64,000 bases of DNA, from NCBI GenBank assembly GCA_944321365.1, contig CALULA010000002.1, forward strand, positions 62,001 through 126,000, given 5' to 3'. Origin of the DNA: an uncultured Paraprevotella sp. GTDB taxonomy: Bacteria; Bacteroidota; Bacteroidia; Bacteroidales; Bacteroidaceae. A program made the translations under genes and the position numbers. The notes under the pieces were generated by a model that was given only the letters and a program-made list of their open reading frames with translations, ran no database searches and was not told where the DNA came from. Shown here one piece after another: positions 54,062 to 63,590 of this stretch (its first letter is position 1; every line of letters begins with the position of its first letter).

Positions 54062-55237
54062 TTAATGTTCCATGATCGTGCAGATGCTGACGCGGTTCCA
54101 GTCGGGTTCTTCAAACATATAGCCCACGCCTTGTCCCTTGGCAGTGATGCGTTGTGCGTCGATTCTGAATTTGTTCACCAGCATGTTCTTCACGGCTTCG
54201 GCGCGTTGTCTGGCGATTCGTTCGTTGATCTCTGCACTGCCTTCTGGCGAAGCGTAACCCAGAATCTCCACTCTGGCTCTCTTGTGGTTCTTCAGATAAG
54301 TGGCGATGCGCTCTACATTAGGCTGTTGTGATGCGTCGATGACGGTCTTGCCTTGGCGGAAAGTGACGACAGACTCCAGTGTCTTCTTGTTGTTTGTGAT
54401 GACTTTCGGAGCGCGGTTACGGCATTCATTGAGTGCGCGTTCCAGGTCGGCGGATTTCTGCTGCTCCTTGTGCAGCGCGTCTGCGGTGCGTTTCAGCTGT
54501 ATTTCCTTGGCTGTAGCCTCGTCGTGCAGGGCGTTGATGCGCGCGTTGAGCCTGCCCACTTCGGCCGCGTCATAGAGCCGGGCTTTGGTCATATAATGTC
54601 TGCCGTTGCTGTTCTTGAAGTGATAGACGATGCCTGCCGCGATTTCCCAATTGGCATAATTGGCATTGAAGTTGGGATGACGGTGTGTGCGTCCGGCGTC
54701 CCACATGCTCATGTCCCAATAGATGGCAGGTTTGATGGCTACGGTCCATGCCTTCTTTTCGCCTACATTGAAGTTGAAGTTTACTCCGGCTTTAGATGCC
54801 AGATGGTTGGCTCCCTCTCCCGTAGAATAGAAATCGTTCAGTCTGAGCCATCCGAAACCGCCTACGGCTTCTACTTCAAACAGGCGGGGGGAGCCGTTGT
54901 AGCCTGCGAAGATATTGTTCAGGTTGACGCGGTTCAGTAACATGACGTTGAAAGCGTCGAATGCTGTGGTACTCTTTCCTGCGGCCATGGGGCTTTGGGT
55001 GTTGATGGTCCAGTTGCTTTCCAGGGTTAGTCCGTAGATGGGTGACAATTGTTTGTTTACGTCGATGCCGACAACGGCACGGGCGTTCTTGAAGAATGCG
55101 CTATGGGTAAGGGGCGTGACGATGCCACCGTTCAATCCGATGGACCAATTGTCACGGATTTTATTCCCTTCCAGTACCTGTGCGTTCAGGTTGCTGAGGC
55201 CTAAAAGGCTTAATAATACGATCAAAGACTTTCTCAT
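54062..55237 (-). CDS. OmpA-family outer-membrane protein
   Basis: A 391-residue protein: signal peptide (about 1-19, ending LNAQ), an N-terminal eight-strand-like barrel (about 25-215: GLNGGIVTPLTHSAFFKNAR, VGGFGWLRLND, AAGIVYHFKNSNGRHY), a coiled coil (about 225-270, LHDEATAKEIQLKRTADALH), and an OmpA peptidoglycan-binding domain (about 285-391: VEILGYASPEGSAEINERIA, RITAKGQGVG). The domain contains the family Asp/Arg positions only in part. Tandem paralogue of the next gene. Complete promoter upstream. Confidence 0.9.
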   Translation of the reverse strand: MRKSLIVLLSLLGLSNLNAQVLEGNKIRDNWSIGLNGGIVTPLTHSAFFKNARAVVGIDVNKQLSPIYGLTLESNWTINTQSPMAAGKSTTAFDAFNVMLLNRVNLNNIFAGYNGSPRLFEVEAVGGFGWLRLNDFYSTGEGANHLASKAGVNFNFNVGEKKAWTVAIKPAIYWDMSMWDAGRTHRHPNFNANYANWEIAAGIVYHFKNSNGRHYMTKARLYDAAEVGRLNARINALHDEATAKEIQLKRTADALHKEQQKSADLERALNECRNRAPKVITNNKKTLESVVTFRQGKTVIDASQQPNVERIATYLKNHKRARVEILGYASPEGSAEINERIARQRAEAVKNMLVNKFRIDAQRITAKGQGVGYMFEEPDWNRVSICTIMEH

Positions 55238-55265
55238 AAATTGTGTTTGTTTAGTGAAACATTCT

Positions 55266-55296
55266 CAAATATAAGGTTTTTTTGATCCGTTTCCAA
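55266..55296 (-). promoter_or_regulatory. Promoter of the first OmpA paralogue
   Basis: Minus-strand TTG (55294-55296), 20-bp spacer, TATATTTG (55266-55273): a full consensus match. Confidence 0.75.
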
Positions 55297-55354
55297 GGGA
55301 AAAGGTACTTTTTTTTGAAAAAATATCTGTCAGTTGCAGCTGTTATATATAAGA

Positions 55355-55389
55355 AAGGACGGGGAAATCTTAATGAATTCCCCGTCCTT
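55355..55389 (-). terminator. Terminator of the second OmpA paralogue
   Basis: AAGGACGGGGAA pairs perfectly with TTCCCCGTCCTT (12 bp, 11-nt loop), starting 26 bases after the stop codon. It separates the two paralogues, so each has its own transcript. Confidence 0.85.
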
Positions 55390-55414
55390 GGTCGTTATGC
55401 AAAAGAATATGCTT

Positions 55415-56545
55415 TTACTTCGTTACGCAGATGCTTGCACGGTTGTATGTAGGTTCTTCAAATACGGTTCCTACTCCCTTGCCTTCGGTCTCGATGCGGT
55501 CTGCGCTGATGTTATACTCCTTTACAAGGATGTTCTTCACTGCTTCTGCACGTTTCTCGGACAATTTCTGGTTGAAGTCTGCATTGCCTTCGGGTGAAGC
55601 GTAACCGGAAATGATGACTTTGGCGTTCGCATTCTTCTTCAGGTAGCTGGCCAGACGATCGATGTTTGGCATTTGCAGGGCGTCAACCTTGCTGCTGCTC
55701 TGACGGAAGATGACTACATATTCGCTCTTTTCTACCGGCTTGGTTTCCGGAGCCACCTTCTTGCTCTTGCAGTCGTTCAGCTCTTTCTGCAGGTCGTTGA
55801 TGGTGTTCTGTGCATTCTGCAATGCGCGGTCTTTTCCGGCAGCTTCTGCTTCCATCGAGCTGATGGTGGCGTTCAGCGCGGCGATTTCAGCGGCGTGACC
55901 GCAACTGTTGGAGTAATAGTGCTTGCCGTTGCTGTTCTTGAAGTGGTAAACTACACCGGCGGTGATTTCCCATGTGGCTTGGTTGGCATCGAAGTTGATG
56001 TTGTCGGCGTCAAACTGTGTCATGTTCCACAGGATTGCCGGTTTTACGGCAATAGTCCAAGCTTTCTTCTCTCCAATGTTGAAATTGAAGTTCAGACCGG
56101 CCTTTGAGGATATCCAGTTGCCGTCTTTCATGCCGTCGTTGCCGTAGTATGCGTCGTTCACATGCAACCAGCCGAAACCTCCGATGGCCTCGACTTCGAA
56201 CAATGTGGGTTCTCCTTTATAGCGGCGGAAAATGTTGTTCAGATTCAAGCGGTGCAATAACATGAGGTTGCTGGCATCGAAAGCGGCACTGCTTTCAAAC
56301 GTGTTGATGCTCCACATGTTTTCAAAGGTCAGACCATAAATGGGAGACAGCTGCTTGTTGATGTCGATACCCATGGTCGCACGGGCGTTCTTGAAGAACG
56401 CGCTGTGAGTGAGCGGGGTGACAATTCCGCCGTTTATACCGATTGACCAATTGTCACGAAACTTTGTAGTTTGTTCTTCTGTCGTTTGGGCGTTCAGGCA
56501 ACTTGCGCCTAACACACCGGCTAATAATAGTAGAGACTTTTTCAT
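55415..56545 (-). CDS. OmpA-family outer-membrane protein
   Basis: A 376-residue paralogue of the preceding gene with the same plan: signal peptide (ending LNAQ), barrel (GINGGIVTPLTHSAFFKNAR, IGGFGWLHVNDAYYG, TAGVVYHFKNSNGKHYYSN), coiled coil (SSMEAEAAGKDRALQNAQN), and OmpA domain (KVIISGYASPEGNADFNQKL, DRIETEGKGVG). Likely an abundant outer-membrane protein anchoring the envelope to peptidoglycan. Confidence 0.9.
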   Translation of the reverse strand: MKKSLLLLAGVLGASCLNAQTTEEQTTKFRDNWSIGINGGIVTPLTHSAFFKNARATMGIDINKQLSPIYGLTFENMWSINTFESSAAFDASNLMLLHRLNLNNIFRRYKGEPTLFEVEAIGGFGWLHVNDAYYGNDGMKDGNWISSKAGLNFNFNIGEKKAWTIAVKPAILWNMTQFDADNINFDANQATWEITAGVVYHFKNSNGKHYYSNSCGHAAEIAALNATISSMEAEAAGKDRALQNAQNTINDLQKELNDCKSKKVAPETKPVEKSEYVVIFRQSSSKVDALQMPNIDRLASYLKKNANAKVIISGYASPEGNADFNQKLSEKRAEAVKNILVKEYNISADRIETEGKGVGTVFEEPTYNRASICVTK

Positions 56546-59059: not shown

Positions 59060-60571
59060 TTATTTTATATATTCACTCCAGTCTGTCAGACGCATATCCC
59101 CCTTGCGGAGATAGGTGTCGTGCATGGCGAAAGCTGCTGAAAGACAATGGTGAGTATGTCCACCGTTCTTCTCCGCATATTTCAGGTAATCTCTCAACAT
59201 CGGGCGGTAGTCGGGATGAGCCACTTTAATGACCTCTTCCGCTTTCTCCATGGAGCATTTTCCTCTCAGGTCGGCCACACCGTATTCCGTTATAATGGCG
59301 TCGATGAAATGGCTCGTGTGATCGATGTGTGAACAGAACGGCACGATGCTGCTGATGGCACCGCCTTTGGTGGTGGACCCGCAAGTGAAGATGCTCAGAT
59401 AGGCATTGTTGGTGAAGTCGGCAGACCCGCCGATGCCGTTCATCATCTTTGTTCCGCAGATCTTTGTGGAATTCACGTGTCCGTAGATGTCGGCCTCGAT
59501 GGCAGTGTTCAGCGAACATACGCCGATGCGTGCGATGACTTCCGGACAGTTGGAGATTTCGGACGGACGCAGCACGAGCTTGTCTTTGAAAAAGTCCATG
59601 TCGTTGTAGATGCCCTGCAGGCATTCGTTGGTTACGGTGAGCGAGCAGGCCGAGGCCGACAGCACGCGTCCCTCGCGCATCAGTTGTACGGGAGCATCTT
59701 GTAACACTTCAGTGTAGATGCTGAAGTTCGGCACATCCGGGCACTGTCCCAATGCCCCCAATACGGCATTGGCCCCACTGCCCACACCGCTTTGCAGGTT
59801 CAGGAATGTGGGCGGAATCTTTCCTTCTTTCAGGTTGCCCAGCAGGAAGCTCGCCACGTTGGCCCCGATTTGGGTAGTGATAGGGTCCGGATCCTTGAAA
59901 GCCCGTGCTTCATCGGGGATATTACATTCCACTATGCCTATGATGCGGTCGGCATCCACTTCCACATAAGGCTTTCCGATGCGGTCGTTGGCTTTCATGA
60001 TCATGACGGGTGTGCGGAAGGGATGGTCCTCTATTTCGTACACATCGTGTATGCCCATGCACTTTTTGCTGTGGAATGCGTTCAATTCTACGATGATTCC
60101 CTTACGTGCCAGACGGCAGATTGTAGGACTGATGCCACCGGCCGCCGTCAGGTATATATGAGCCTTGTTCCCCACCTGTTCCACTTCGCAGGCTTCTATG
60201 ATGGCCCAGTCTACAGGACCCAGATAGCCTTGGCGGACTTGGGTTGCCATGTTGGACAGGTTCAGGTCGGAATATGAGATTTCGTTTTTGTTGACGTGCG
60301 TACGGAAATCTTTGTTTGTAGTGTAGGGGGCGCGGAATTTGATGGCATGTGCGTTGGCTAACATACCGTCGCAGCTCTGGCCTGTCGAGGCACCAGTCAG
60401 TATGTTGACTTTAAATGCTTTGCCCGTAGCGTGTTCTTCTTCTGCTTTCCGGGCAATTTCGGCCGGTACGCTTTTAGGTACTCCGGCCGGTGTGAAGCCG
60501 CTCAGTCCGATGCTGTCGCCGTTCTGGATAAGCGCGGCGGCTTCAGTTGCCGTAATTTTGCTGAATCCCAT
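59060..60571 (-). CDS. Acetyl-CoA hydrolase/succinyl-CoA:acetate CoA-transferase family protein
   Basis: A 503-residue class I-like CoA-transferase. Markers: SGFTPAGVPKSVPAEIARKA, AIIEACEVEQVGNKAHIYLT, IPPTFLNLQSGVGSGANAVL, the catalytic glutamate in IYTEVLQD, and the C-terminal GGAISSIVPFCSHIDHTSHF and EYGVADLRGKCSMEKAEEVI. Likely acts in anaerobic acetate or succinate metabolism, moving CoA between succinyl-CoA or propionyl-CoA and acetate; the exact pair cannot be told from sequence. Confidence 0.9.
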   Translation of the reverse strand: MGFSKITATEAAALIQNGDSIGLSGFTPAGVPKSVPAEIARKAEEEHATGKAFKVNILTGASTGQSCDGMLANAHAIKFRAPYTTNKDFRTHVNKNEISYSDLNLSNMATQVRQGYLGPVDWAIIEACEVEQVGNKAHIYLTAAGGISPTICRLARKGIIVELNAFHSKKCMGIHDVYEIEDHPFRTPVMIMKANDRIGKPYVEVDADRIIGIVECNIPDEARAFKDPDPITTQIGANVASFLLGNLKEGKIPPTFLNLQSGVGSGANAVLGALGQCPDVPNFSIYTEVLQDAPVQLMREGRVLSASACSLTVTNECLQGIYNDMDFFKDKLVLRPSEISNCPEVIARIGVCSLNTAIEADIYGHVNSTKICGTKMMNGIGGSADFTNNAYLSIFTCGSTTKGGAISSIVPFCSHIDHTSHFIDAIITEYGVADLRGKCSMEKAEEVIKVAHPDYRPMLRDYLKYAEKNGGHTHHCLSAAFAMHDTYLRKGDMRLTDWSEYIK

Positions 60572-60667: not shown

Positions 60668-61726
60668 TTACTTTTGTTGGAATTGCAGCCGGTACTGGCT
60701 GGGGGTGCAGCCGTATCTTTTGGTGAAAGACCGGCGGAATGTACTGTGGGAGTTAAAGCCGGAGAGGGTGGATATTTCTTCGATTGGTGTTTTTGTCTGT
60801 TGCAGGAGCCGTTCGGCGTATGTCAGACGATGCTGGTTGATGTAGTCGAAAAACGTCGTGTTCAATACGCTGTTCAGATATTTGGAGATATATGTGCGGT
60901 TTGTGCCGAGGGCCTTTGCCAAGTCTATGATGGTGAGTCTCGGATTCAGAAACAGTCGTTCTTCCACGATGATCTGGTGCAACTGCTCTTCGGACAGATA
61001 TTTACAGTTTCCGTTTTGGGGCAGAGAGACATCAGTAACCAAGGGGGCGTTCACCAGCGAACTGATGACTTTTTCCTGTCGGTTGATAAAGAAACTGATC
61101 AGCGACCAGTTGATGCAGATGAACAGATAGTAAAGAGTGTCGTTGAGCTTGGAGTAGTATAAGGAAGACAGACTCCACGCGGCAAGGAAGAATACGAAGA
61201 ACAGCAGAATGATATATAGCCAGTGGAGACTGATGTTTTTGCTGTAGGAATAGTTCTGTTTCAGCCGTCTGTGATAGGCGGGAATCTCGAACAGTATATA
61301 CGTCATGATGCTGAGGCCGTAGATGACGGCATAAGCTATGGCGCTTTCATACACCAGGTCCGACGGCCGGAATATGTATGTCAGGAGAAATAGTACGTAG
61401 GGAACTTCGTGCAGAAGAGCGCGGCGGAGATGCATCGAGCCGGGATGAGTAAGTTCAAAAAGAAGAAAGGCGCAGGTGGGTACTGCAGTCATGTCGATAA
61501 GTACGAATATGTGGTGAAGATATTCGTACGTCACCGTTGGATACCATATCAGAATAATGTCTTTCAAAGACTGCATCACCCAGACCAGCAATATCCATCC
61601 CGTGATTCTGTGAAGCCGGTTGTCGGTCTTGTTTCGCAGAAAATGTACGCACAGACACAGCAGAAACATGAAGCTGGTTCCTGCCATATATTGCATAAGT
61701 TGCAAGGAAACGATATTGTTTGTCAT
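60668..61726 (-). CDS. Membrane-bound AraC-type transcriptional regulator
   Basis: A 352-residue protein with about six or seven membrane helices in residues 8-225 (SFMFLLCLCVHFL, ITGWILLVWVMQSL, LHWLYIILLFFVFFLAAW) and a C-terminal AraC HTH domain (about 245-352: IIDLAKALGTNRTYISKYLN, PIEEISTLSGFNSHSTFRRS, GCTPSQYRLQFQQ). A membrane sensor joined to a DNA-binding domain is a known Bacteroidetes layout. Its target is not evident; the co-directional CoA-transferase operon begins about 100 bases downstream. Confidence 0.88.
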   Translation of the reverse strand: MTNNIVSLQLMQYMAGTSFMFLLCLCVHFLRNKTDNRLHRITGWILLVWVMQSLKDIILIWYPTVTYEYLHHIFVLIDMTAVPTCAFLLFELTHPGSMHLRRALLHEVPYVLFLLTYIFRPSDLVYESAIAYAVIYGLSIMTYILFEIPAYHRRLKQNYSYSKNISLHWLYIILLFFVFFLAAWSLSSLYYSKLNDTLYYLFICINWSLISFFINRQEKVISSLVNAPLVTDVSLPQNGNCKYLSEEQLHQIIVEERLFLNPRLTIIDLAKALGTNRTYISKYLNSVLNTTFFDYINQHRLTYAERLLQQTKTPIEEISTLSGFNSHSTFRRSFTKRYGCTPSQYRLQFQQK

Positions 61727-61770: not shown

Positions 61771-61778
61771 CAAAGGTA
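61771..61778 (-). promoter_or_regulatory. -7 element of the membrane AraC gene
   Basis: Minus-strand TACCTTTG fits TAnnTTTG 44 bp upstream of the ATG at 61726. Confidence 0.5.
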
Positions 61779-61958: not shown

Positions 61959-62002
61959 GAACGGGCGGCTCTGAGTGCGGTCTGTTTGAGGATATGCAAA
62001 AA

Positions 62003-62080
62003 AATAAACAAGCGGGGTTTTCGCAAATCCCGCTTATTTAACTAAACCTTAACTATGAAAAAATCTAATGTTTTTATTCG
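62003..62080 (-). ncRNA. Probable small RNA or attenuated leader
   Basis: On the minus strand a TTG (62112-62114) and GATCTTTG (62085-62092) with a 19-bp spacer form a near-consensus promoter starting near 62078. About 45 nt later the hairpin AAGCGGG...CCCGCTT (62010-62035) is followed by TGTTTATTTTTTTGC, a strong terminator on this strand. No minus-strand coding gene lies between, so the natural reading is a transcript of about 75 nt. Alternatively it is an attenuator for the membrane AraC gene 280 bases downstream. Confidence 0.4.
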
Positions 62081-62218
62081 AGTGCAAAGATCGTATTATT
62101 CTTTGGAATGGCAAAAGAACAGGAAGGCTTTTTGCCTGCTTTTAGTGTTTTTTAAGATAGCGGATGCTTCTTTTTTCTCTTTGACGCTGAAATCAGCGGC
62201 AATCTGTGCGATTTTGTG

Positions 62219-62226
62219 TATCTTTG
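62219..62226 (+). promoter_or_regulatory. -7 element of miaB
   Basis: TATCTTTG fits TAnnTTTG 23 bp upstream of the miaB ATG. Confidence 0.55.
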
Positions 62227-62249
62227 CAACTTGAATTTGAACGAATCGC

Positions 62250-63590
62250 ATGAAACGACTTTTTATAGAAACTTACGGGTGCCAGATGAATGTGGCTGAC
62301 AGCGAGGTGGTGGCCTCGGTCATGCGCATGGCTGGTTATGAGGTTTGCGAGACGCTGGATGAGGCTGATGCTGTTTTTCTGAATACGTGTTCTGTCAGGG
62401 ACAATGCCGAACAGAAAATCCTGAACCGCCTGGAGGCTTTGCATGCCTTGCGCAAGAAAGGAAAGCATCTGATTATCGGAGTGCTGGGCTGTATGGCCGA
62501 GCGTGTGAAAGACGAACTGATTGAAAAGCATCATGTCGACGTGGTGGCCGGACCGGATGCCTACTTGTCCCTGCCCGACCTGATAGCACAAGTAGAACTG
62601 GGGCATAAGGCCATCAATGTGGAGTTGTCCACTTCGGAGACTTACAAGGATGTCGTTCCGCAGCGGATTTGCGGTCCGCACATTTCAGGATTCGTAAGCA
62701 TCATGCGTGGCTGCAACAATTTCTGTCATTATTGTATAGTTCCCTACACCCGCGGACGGGAACGGAGCCGTGACGTGGAGAGCATTTTGCGCGAGGTGGA
62801 TGATTTGCGCAGCAGAGGATATAAGGAAGTGACGTTGTTGGGACAGAACGTCAATTCTTATCGTCATGAGGAAGCCGGCGGCAAGGTGGTGGATTTTCCG
62901 GAGCTGCTGCGCAAGATGGCGCATACGGCAGTCGGGATGAGAGTGCGGTTCACGACCTCACATCCTAAGGACATGAGTGACGAGACTTTGCGCGTTATTG
63001 CCGAGGAGCCTAATGTCTGCCGTCATATTCATCTGCCGGTGCAGAGCGGCAGTAATCGCATCCTGCAGCTCATGAACCGCAAATATACGCGGGAATGGTA
63101 TCTCGACCGTGTGGCTGCCATCCGCCGTATCGTGCCGGACTGCGGCTTGTCGACCGATATATTTTCCGGTTATTGTTCGGAGACGGAAGACGATCACCGG
63201 CAGTCGCTTTCGCTGATGAGAGAATGTGCTTACGACAGTGCTTTCATGTTCAAGTACTCCGAGCGGCCGGGAACTTATGCGGCACGGCATCTGCCCGACG
63301 ATGTTCCGGAGGAAGTCAAGGTGCGTCGTCTGAACGAACTGATAGCCTTGCAGAACGAGCTTTCAGCTGCCAGCAATGAAGCTTGTGTGGGCAAGGCTTT
63401 CGAGGTGCTGGTGGAGGGCGTGAGCAAACGCTCCAAAGAGCAGCTTTTTGGTCGGACGGAGCAGAACAAGGTCGTGGTATTCGACCGTGCCGGACATCAT
63501 GTGGGTGAGTTTGTTACGGTTAAAATCACCGGAAGTACTTCGGCGACCTTGAAAGGGACGGTAATCGGAGCCCGCGACGGGGCTGTCTGA
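62250..63590 (+). CDS. miaB: tRNA-2-methylthio-N6-dimethylallyladenosine synthase
   Basis: Radical SAM methylthiotransferase modifying A37 of tRNAs that read UNN codons. 446 residues: the N-terminal domain holds three cluster cysteines (ETYGCQMN C11, NTCSVRDNAEQK, VLGCMAERVKD). The radical SAM motif is CNNFCHYC in SIMRGCNNFCHYCIVPYTRG, followed by LLGQNVNSYR and HLPVQSGSNRIL. The C-terminal TRAM domain binds tRNA (about 380-440). The ATG at 62250 gives the family N-terminus. Confidence 0.95.
   Translation: MKRLFIETYGCQMNVADSEVVASVMRMAGYEVCETLDEADAVFLNTCSVRDNAEQKILNRLEALHALRKKGKHLIIGVLGCMAERVKDELIEKHHVDVVAGPDAYLSLPDLIAQVELGHKAINVELSTSETYKDVVPQRICGPHISGFVSIMRGCNNFCHYCIVPYTRGRERSRDVESILREVDDLRSRGYKEVTLLGQNVNSYRHEEAGGKVVDFPELLRKMAHTAVGMRVRFTTSHPKDMSDETLRVIAEEPNVCRHIHLPVQSGSNRILQLMNRKYTREWYLDRVAAIRRIVPDCGLSTDIFSGYCSETEDDHRQSLSLMRECAYDSAFMFKYSERPGTYAARHLPDDVPEEVKVRRLNELIALQNELSAASNEACVGKAFEVLVEGVSKRSKEQLFGRTEQNKVVVFDRAGHHVGEFVTVKITGSTSATLKGTVIGARDGAV

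Follow-up and report, generated by a model that had tools for sequence, protein, structure and literature searches.

Organization of the locus

The window analyzed here, a 64,000-nucleotide stretch of DNA from an uncultured Paraprevotella species, contains a minus-strand promoter and terminator in the gap between two divergently oriented genes. On the plus strand is a gene for a radical SAM tRNA methylthiotransferase (62250..63590), recognized from its Pfam domains, which we take to be miaB. On the minus strand are a membrane AraC-type regulator (60668..61726) and, beyond it, an acetyl-CoA hydrolase/transferase (59060..60571). A preliminary description of this DNA had reported the promoter and terminator with no gene between them, and both were found. 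The Bacteroides-type promoter spans 62085-62115 on the minus strand and consists of a -33 element, TTTG (62112..62115), and, after a spacing of 19 nt, a -7 element, GATCTTTG (62085..62092), which on the minus strand has one mismatch to the consensus TAnnTTTG. About 50 nt of A/U-rich sequence separate the promoter from the terminator hairpin (62005..62040, minus strand), the GC part of which, AAGCGGGATTTGCGAAAACCCCGCTT, occupies 62035-62010, while the predicted stem reaches 62040/62005. A U-rich tail follows at 62009-61998. In the list of open reading frames no minus-strand gene ends at the hairpin, and the next minus-strand gene downstream begins at 61726. A transcript of this unit would be a small RNA of about 80 nt (61998..62078, minus strand), with the 5' end placed from the -7 box.

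Comparison of homologues identified a near-invariant core, AAACATTAGATTTTTTCATAGTTAAGGTTTAG (62042..62073, minus strand), that includes the anti-start-codon CAU at 62057-62055. The core was mostly unpaired in the centroid fold, and the minimum-energy fold paired part of it weakly. The predicted fold of the minus strand had an energy of -20.9 kcal/mol and a z score of only -2.0, so the fold by itself is only mildly unusual. A generic sigma-70 and terminator scan of the window, which was not designed for Bacteroides promoters, listed neither the promoter nor the terminator of the small RNA, and its 7 promoter-like sites compared with 6.4 expected were at chance level. What raises this feature above chance is conservation, both of the -33/-7 pairs upstream of the homologues and of a covarying terminator.

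Conservation across the Bacteroidales

A BLAST search with the 136-base region gave some match at E ≤ 1 in 94 of 101 genomes, most of them weak. The best matches within the genus covered 79-107 bases at 84-90% identity, and in several other genera about 40 bases were kept at 93-98% identity. The core was common to the homologues and nearly invariant in the Bacteroidaceae, and at least 13 Bacteroidales families retain its 3' two-thirds. Sequences entered the alignments A2 and A3 by an exact match to a 20-base core, which makes the invariant columns of these alignments overstate conservation. Searches with a covariance model (R1, built from 35 sequences) are a fairer measure, though the model was itself derived from rows of A2 and A3.

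In the window, model R1 matched 62075-62003 with 85.5 bits. Of 298 Bacteroidaceae genomes, 148 had a match at E ≤ 0.01, and in 106 it reached E ≤ 1e-8. The covariance search of Bacteroidales genomes that had been proposed in the preliminary description gave matches at E ≤ 0.01 in 135 of 392 genomes, including 44 at E ≤ 1.1e-9 in 13 families. A search across the phylum gave 28 of 392 genomes at E ≤ 0.01; only four matches were strong, every one of them in the Bacteroidales. The many weak matches scored near 30-40 bits and could represent either chance or relatives whose core differs, and the matches listed for genus g6 in the Bacteroidaceae search were all weak. When loci were instead anchored on miaB, 16 of 80 had a match with E below 1e-4, of which 14 were strong and two degenerate, and none of the 16 was a Prevotella-named locus. 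A degenerate version beside miaB was seen at 3261-3327 in L088 and L095 (Bacteroidaceae/Bacteroidales MAGs), with the CAU block lost and AGTTTAGGTTAA and the terminator retained. Three to four weaker matches in tandem, spaced roughly 200-300 bases apart, were present in G479 (C89:165-805) and G391 (C58:18240-18924), and these are possibly arrays of related small RNAs.

Promoter and terminator were conserved together with the core. Of 74 distinct regions upstream of homologues, 65 contained a -33/-7 pair, compared with 200 shuffles that averaged 1.0 and never exceeded 4. All 39 of the best model matches fetched kept UUUUUCAUAGUUAAGG, and six Us were kept in 37 of them. Covariation supports the terminator helix: each of its 8 pairs showed changes on both sides, 96.4% of cells remained paired, and there were 57 cells changed on both sides compared with 14.2 in shuffles (0 of 500 as good). 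The covariation score of the helix was 0.630, compared with 0.243 in shuffles (0 of 500 as good) and at most 0.300 in slid controls. Unlike the terminator, the core had no support from a covarying helix. RNAalifold proposed a seven-pair helix in the core, the pairs of which scarcely vary and so give no verdict for or against it. In each of 55 genomes there was exactly one perfect match to the 18-mer complementary to the core.

With its own promoter, an intrinsic terminator, and no conserved coding frame, the element has, as judged from sequence and conservation, the general features of a gene for a trans-acting small RNA. The feature itself is genuine and very probably a small RNA gene, and the small-RNA reading given in the preliminary description is supported by the conservation of promoter, core, and terminator.

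Gene context

The location of the RNA was also conserved. Among 29 loci retrieved by BLAST, miaB was the divergent neighbor in 24; the corresponding figures were 37 of 39 for loci retrieved with the model and 67 of 73 for the distinct loci. A co-oriented acetyl-CoA hydrolase/transferase was encoded downstream in at least 54 of the 73, which is a lower bound, as many loci end about 1.5 kb out. In many loci a poorly conserved small open reading frame of about 126 codons separates the RNA from the acetyl-CoA hydrolase/transferase gene (G207:C95:40392-40772 and equivalents). The position of the AraC-type regulator between these two is not conserved.

The preliminary description had suggested that the element could instead be an attenuator preceding the membrane AraC gene. 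This is unlikely, because a separate Bacteroides-type promoter for the downstream unit often follows the terminator (15 of the 25 loci examined by a strict rule; mean 0.76 and maximum 4 in shuffles) and because AraC is downstream in just 3 of the 73 distinct loci. In the window, a TACCTTTG box at 61771-61778 is located right before the AraC gene, with no -33 element by the strict rule.

The RNA might also be, more generally, a cis-acting leader, in which case it would be the prematurely terminated 5' end of a downstream operon (the small open reading frame and the acetyl-CoA hydrolase/transferase, or AraC in this genome) with regulated read-through. Such a leader would fit the frequent acetyl-CoA hydrolase/transferase gene downstream, as well as three loci (L053, L056, and L071) in which miaB is 1-2.4 kb off and yet the RNA stays with the downstream gene. 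We nevertheless consider it unlikely. The second promoter past the terminator argues against it, as does the variability of the downstream gene next to a constant core: what follows may be the small open reading frame, the CoA-transferase, or AraC, and some loci have none of these within about 1.5 kb. Furthermore, no antiterminator pairing of the core with the terminator arms was seen when the alignment was examined by eye. Given the divergent miaB, the variable downstream gene, and the second promoter, the simplest view is that the RNA gene forms a separate unit with a promoter on either side.

Relationship to known RNA families

No Rfam family matched at curated thresholds in the window or in 16 homologous loci. 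The top match below threshold in the window was to the L20 leader (27.7 bits compared with a threshold of 58.7), which requires an 84-base insertion and was attributed to chance. The closest families were FopS, GibS, and BTnc231, all of which carry the anti-start-codon motif UUUUUCAU, as does the core.

FopS (RF04319) is similar in design, with a short unpaired 5' part containing UUUUUCAURGU and UAAGGUU, a Bacteroides promoter, and a terminator hairpin. The RNA described here likewise has an anti-start-codon seed of the R1 type in its unpaired 5' part, and UUUUUCAUAGU aligns to the FopS consensus. However, its FopS scores of 23.2 bits in the window and 30.3 bits at the Bacteroides gallinarum locus were well below the gathering score of 56. 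Three FopS loci elsewhere in the same genome scored 71.1-84.5 bits with the FopS model and only 14-19 bits with model R1, so the FopS model works in this genome and separates the two kinds of RNA. FopS is a family of paralogous Bacteroides small RNAs, with 14 copies in B. thetaiotaomicron, whereas the single 18-mer match per genome in 55 genomes indicates one copy at a fixed locus. This RNA also has a shorter distance from CAU to UAAGG and is conserved across families of Bacteroidales. A further RNA of the UUUUUCAU type in the Paraprevotella genome (G000:C5:100971-101042; L008:1501-1572) scored 31.7 bits with the FopS model and 30.7 bits with model R1, which places it between the families.

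GibS (RF04182) has in common with this RNA a GUUUUUCAUAGU-like seed (R1), and pairing at start regions would be common to both. The B. gallinarum orthologue scored 24.2 bits with the GibS model (gathering score 115), and GibS is described as a 145-nt RNA with a second seed and a different type of promoter (PMC7366714, PMC11697453). Pairing at start codons has been reported for both FopS and GibS (PMC11697453). BTnc231 (RF04180) shares UUUUUUUCAUAG and UUUAAGGUUAG but is longer, with a further predicted hairpin, and the B. gallinarum orthologue scored 23.7 bits against its gathering score of 80.4. BatR, a B. thetaiotaomicron small RNA, is similar in that it is described as repressing cell-surface genes at translation starts, but it is 154 nt long with another structure and other neighbors (PMC10861873). 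In the main text of open-access papers there was no report of a small RNA beside miaB or of the core sequence, and nothing that linked such an RNA to Porphyromonas or to acetyl-CoA hydrolase; for the topic of OmpA and start regions a review was found. The orthologue may be an existing uncharacterized BTnc entry in the transcript lists of B. thetaiotaomicron.

The near-invariance of the core over more than 20 unpaired bases exceeds what a short seed needs. This would be accounted for if the core bound an RNA-binding protein, or if the RNA competed with FopS for common targets, and UUUUUCAU is common to the FopS RNAs, three of which are over threshold in the same genome. RbpB, the FopS partner described in B. 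thetaiotaomicron, is an RRM-1 protein; a search of the Paraprevotella genome for RRM_1 proteins found none despite the three FopS loci, and the partner seems to be absent. As the pairing predictions described below also account for a core centered on CAU, a protein-binding or titrating role appears improbable.

Predicted targets

Reverse-complemented, the core reads as a start region, UUAACUAUGAAAAAAUCU. A conserved start on the plus strand, with the core being the complement of ...CUUAACUAUGAAAAAAUCU... and constrained to encode a peptide beginning MKKSN (open reading frame 62055-62234), would fit the typical-looking start region and the 59-codon open frame in the window, but is very improbable because the frame ranges from 4 to 101 codons (median 15) in the 73 distinct loci with little residue conservation past codon 6, and the conserved promoter and U tail are both on the minus strand.

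For the favored reading, in which the core pairs with start regions elsewhere, simple duplex energies were calculated on parts of three genomes. In the Paraprevotella genome, where the 329 start regions were taken from 400 kb of contig 1 and the window, the mean duplex energy of the core was -9.38, compared with -7.47 (sd 0.47) for shuffled cores, none of 60 being as good. Start regions were also preferred over gene interiors (difference of -0.73 compared with +0.31, sd 0.46, for shuffled cores; 0 of 60). A FopS RNA from the same genome behaved like the core. The complement of AUGAAAAA fits any lysine-rich signal-peptide start, so the preference for start regions is partly generic.

Two tandem OmpA-family genes on the minus strand of the window (54062-56545) ranked 1 and 2 of the 329, or 1 and 3 with alternative starts. 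The predicted pairing at the start codon was -21.6 kcal/mol for the gene at 55415..56545 and -19.8 kcal/mol for that at 54062..55237. Searching 36 genomes for OmpA at E ≤ 1e-20 gave 24 matches in 17 genomes and no match in the other 19. Within the genus, pairing energies for 14 of 16 matches lay between -18.8 and -22.9 kcal/mol, levels reached by no more than 2 of 200 shuffles; a usable start was lacking in the remaining two, both from G016. Outside the genus, pairing was strong in G207 (-27.3 kcal/mol), G298 (-21.2), and G539 (-21.6), and weak in G141, G223, and G019, the last with a doubtful start. The OmpA genes of genus g6 gave -17.3 and -11.0 kcal/mol, the former from G022, a genome without a model R1 match. 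In partial genomes OmpA ranked 3 of 121 (G207) and 12 of 168 (G539, with its own core). The first codons of OmpA (MKKS) are also constrained by the protein, so its pairing is suggestive only. On these duplex predictions, the tandem OmpA-family mRNAs are the best candidate targets in this genus.

A search of 55 genomes for near-perfect targets gave 42 non-self sites with one or two mismatches, compared with 48 for a reversed control pattern. Twenty of the 42 were fetched, and six of these were at the start of a frame of at least 100 codons (two being one gene in two genomes). In the Paraprevotella genome, a 15-base start pattern had ten non-self sites with at most two mismatches, three at starts of long frames. 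The lack of an excess of near-perfect sites is expected for a regulator with imperfect pairing, or for one with a target that is not antisense.

Proposed function

The reading that we favor, with a probability of about 70%, is that the locus encodes a free-standing, single-copy, trans-acting small RNA of about 80 nt that pairs over the starts of envelope-protein mRNAs and brakes their synthesis. Judging from the conserved signals, RNA polymerase would start at the Bacteroides-type promoter and stop at the hairpin. The unpaired 5' part of the transcript, 5'-AAACAUUAGAUUUUUUCAUAGUUAAGGUUUAG-3', is predicted to pair with mRNAs that encode exported proteins, covering their start codon and first codons (AUGAAAAA...). 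By analogy with GibS and FopS, and in line with the duplex predictions, this pairing would block ribosome entry. As the core is complementary to the message starts of secreted and outer-membrane proteins, the RNA probably lowers their production. Weighing against this reading are the lack of long near-perfect targets in the genomes searched, the uneven OmpA pairing outside the genus, and the lack of an RRM_1 protein in the Paraprevotella genome, FopS working with a protein of that kind in B. thetaiotaomicron.

MicA and RybB of enterobacteria are Hfq-dependent, and the RNA described here would have a comparable role in restraining OmpA and other outer-membrane proteins. We propose, tentatively and with the odds somewhat against it, that this is an order-wide, single-copy core small RNA of the Bacteroidales, whose ancestral position is the miaB/acetyl-CoA-transferase locus and which, with no RRM chaperone, pairs at start codons to repress mRNAs for OmpA-type and other envelope proteins. 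It would then be the counterpart of the enterobacterial envelope small RNAs and might represent the type from which the GibS/FopS/BTnc231 group arose. Few Bacteroides small RNAs have known targets, and GibS, FopS, BatR, and MasB were, according to the published accounts, all worked out in B. thetaiotaomicron. A small RNA kept at one locus across at least 13 families, with a pairing stretch that hardly changes and a specific candidate target, offers a direct test of post-transcriptional control of the outer membrane in these bacteria, many of them gut bacteria, and of whether such control needs an RNA-binding protein.
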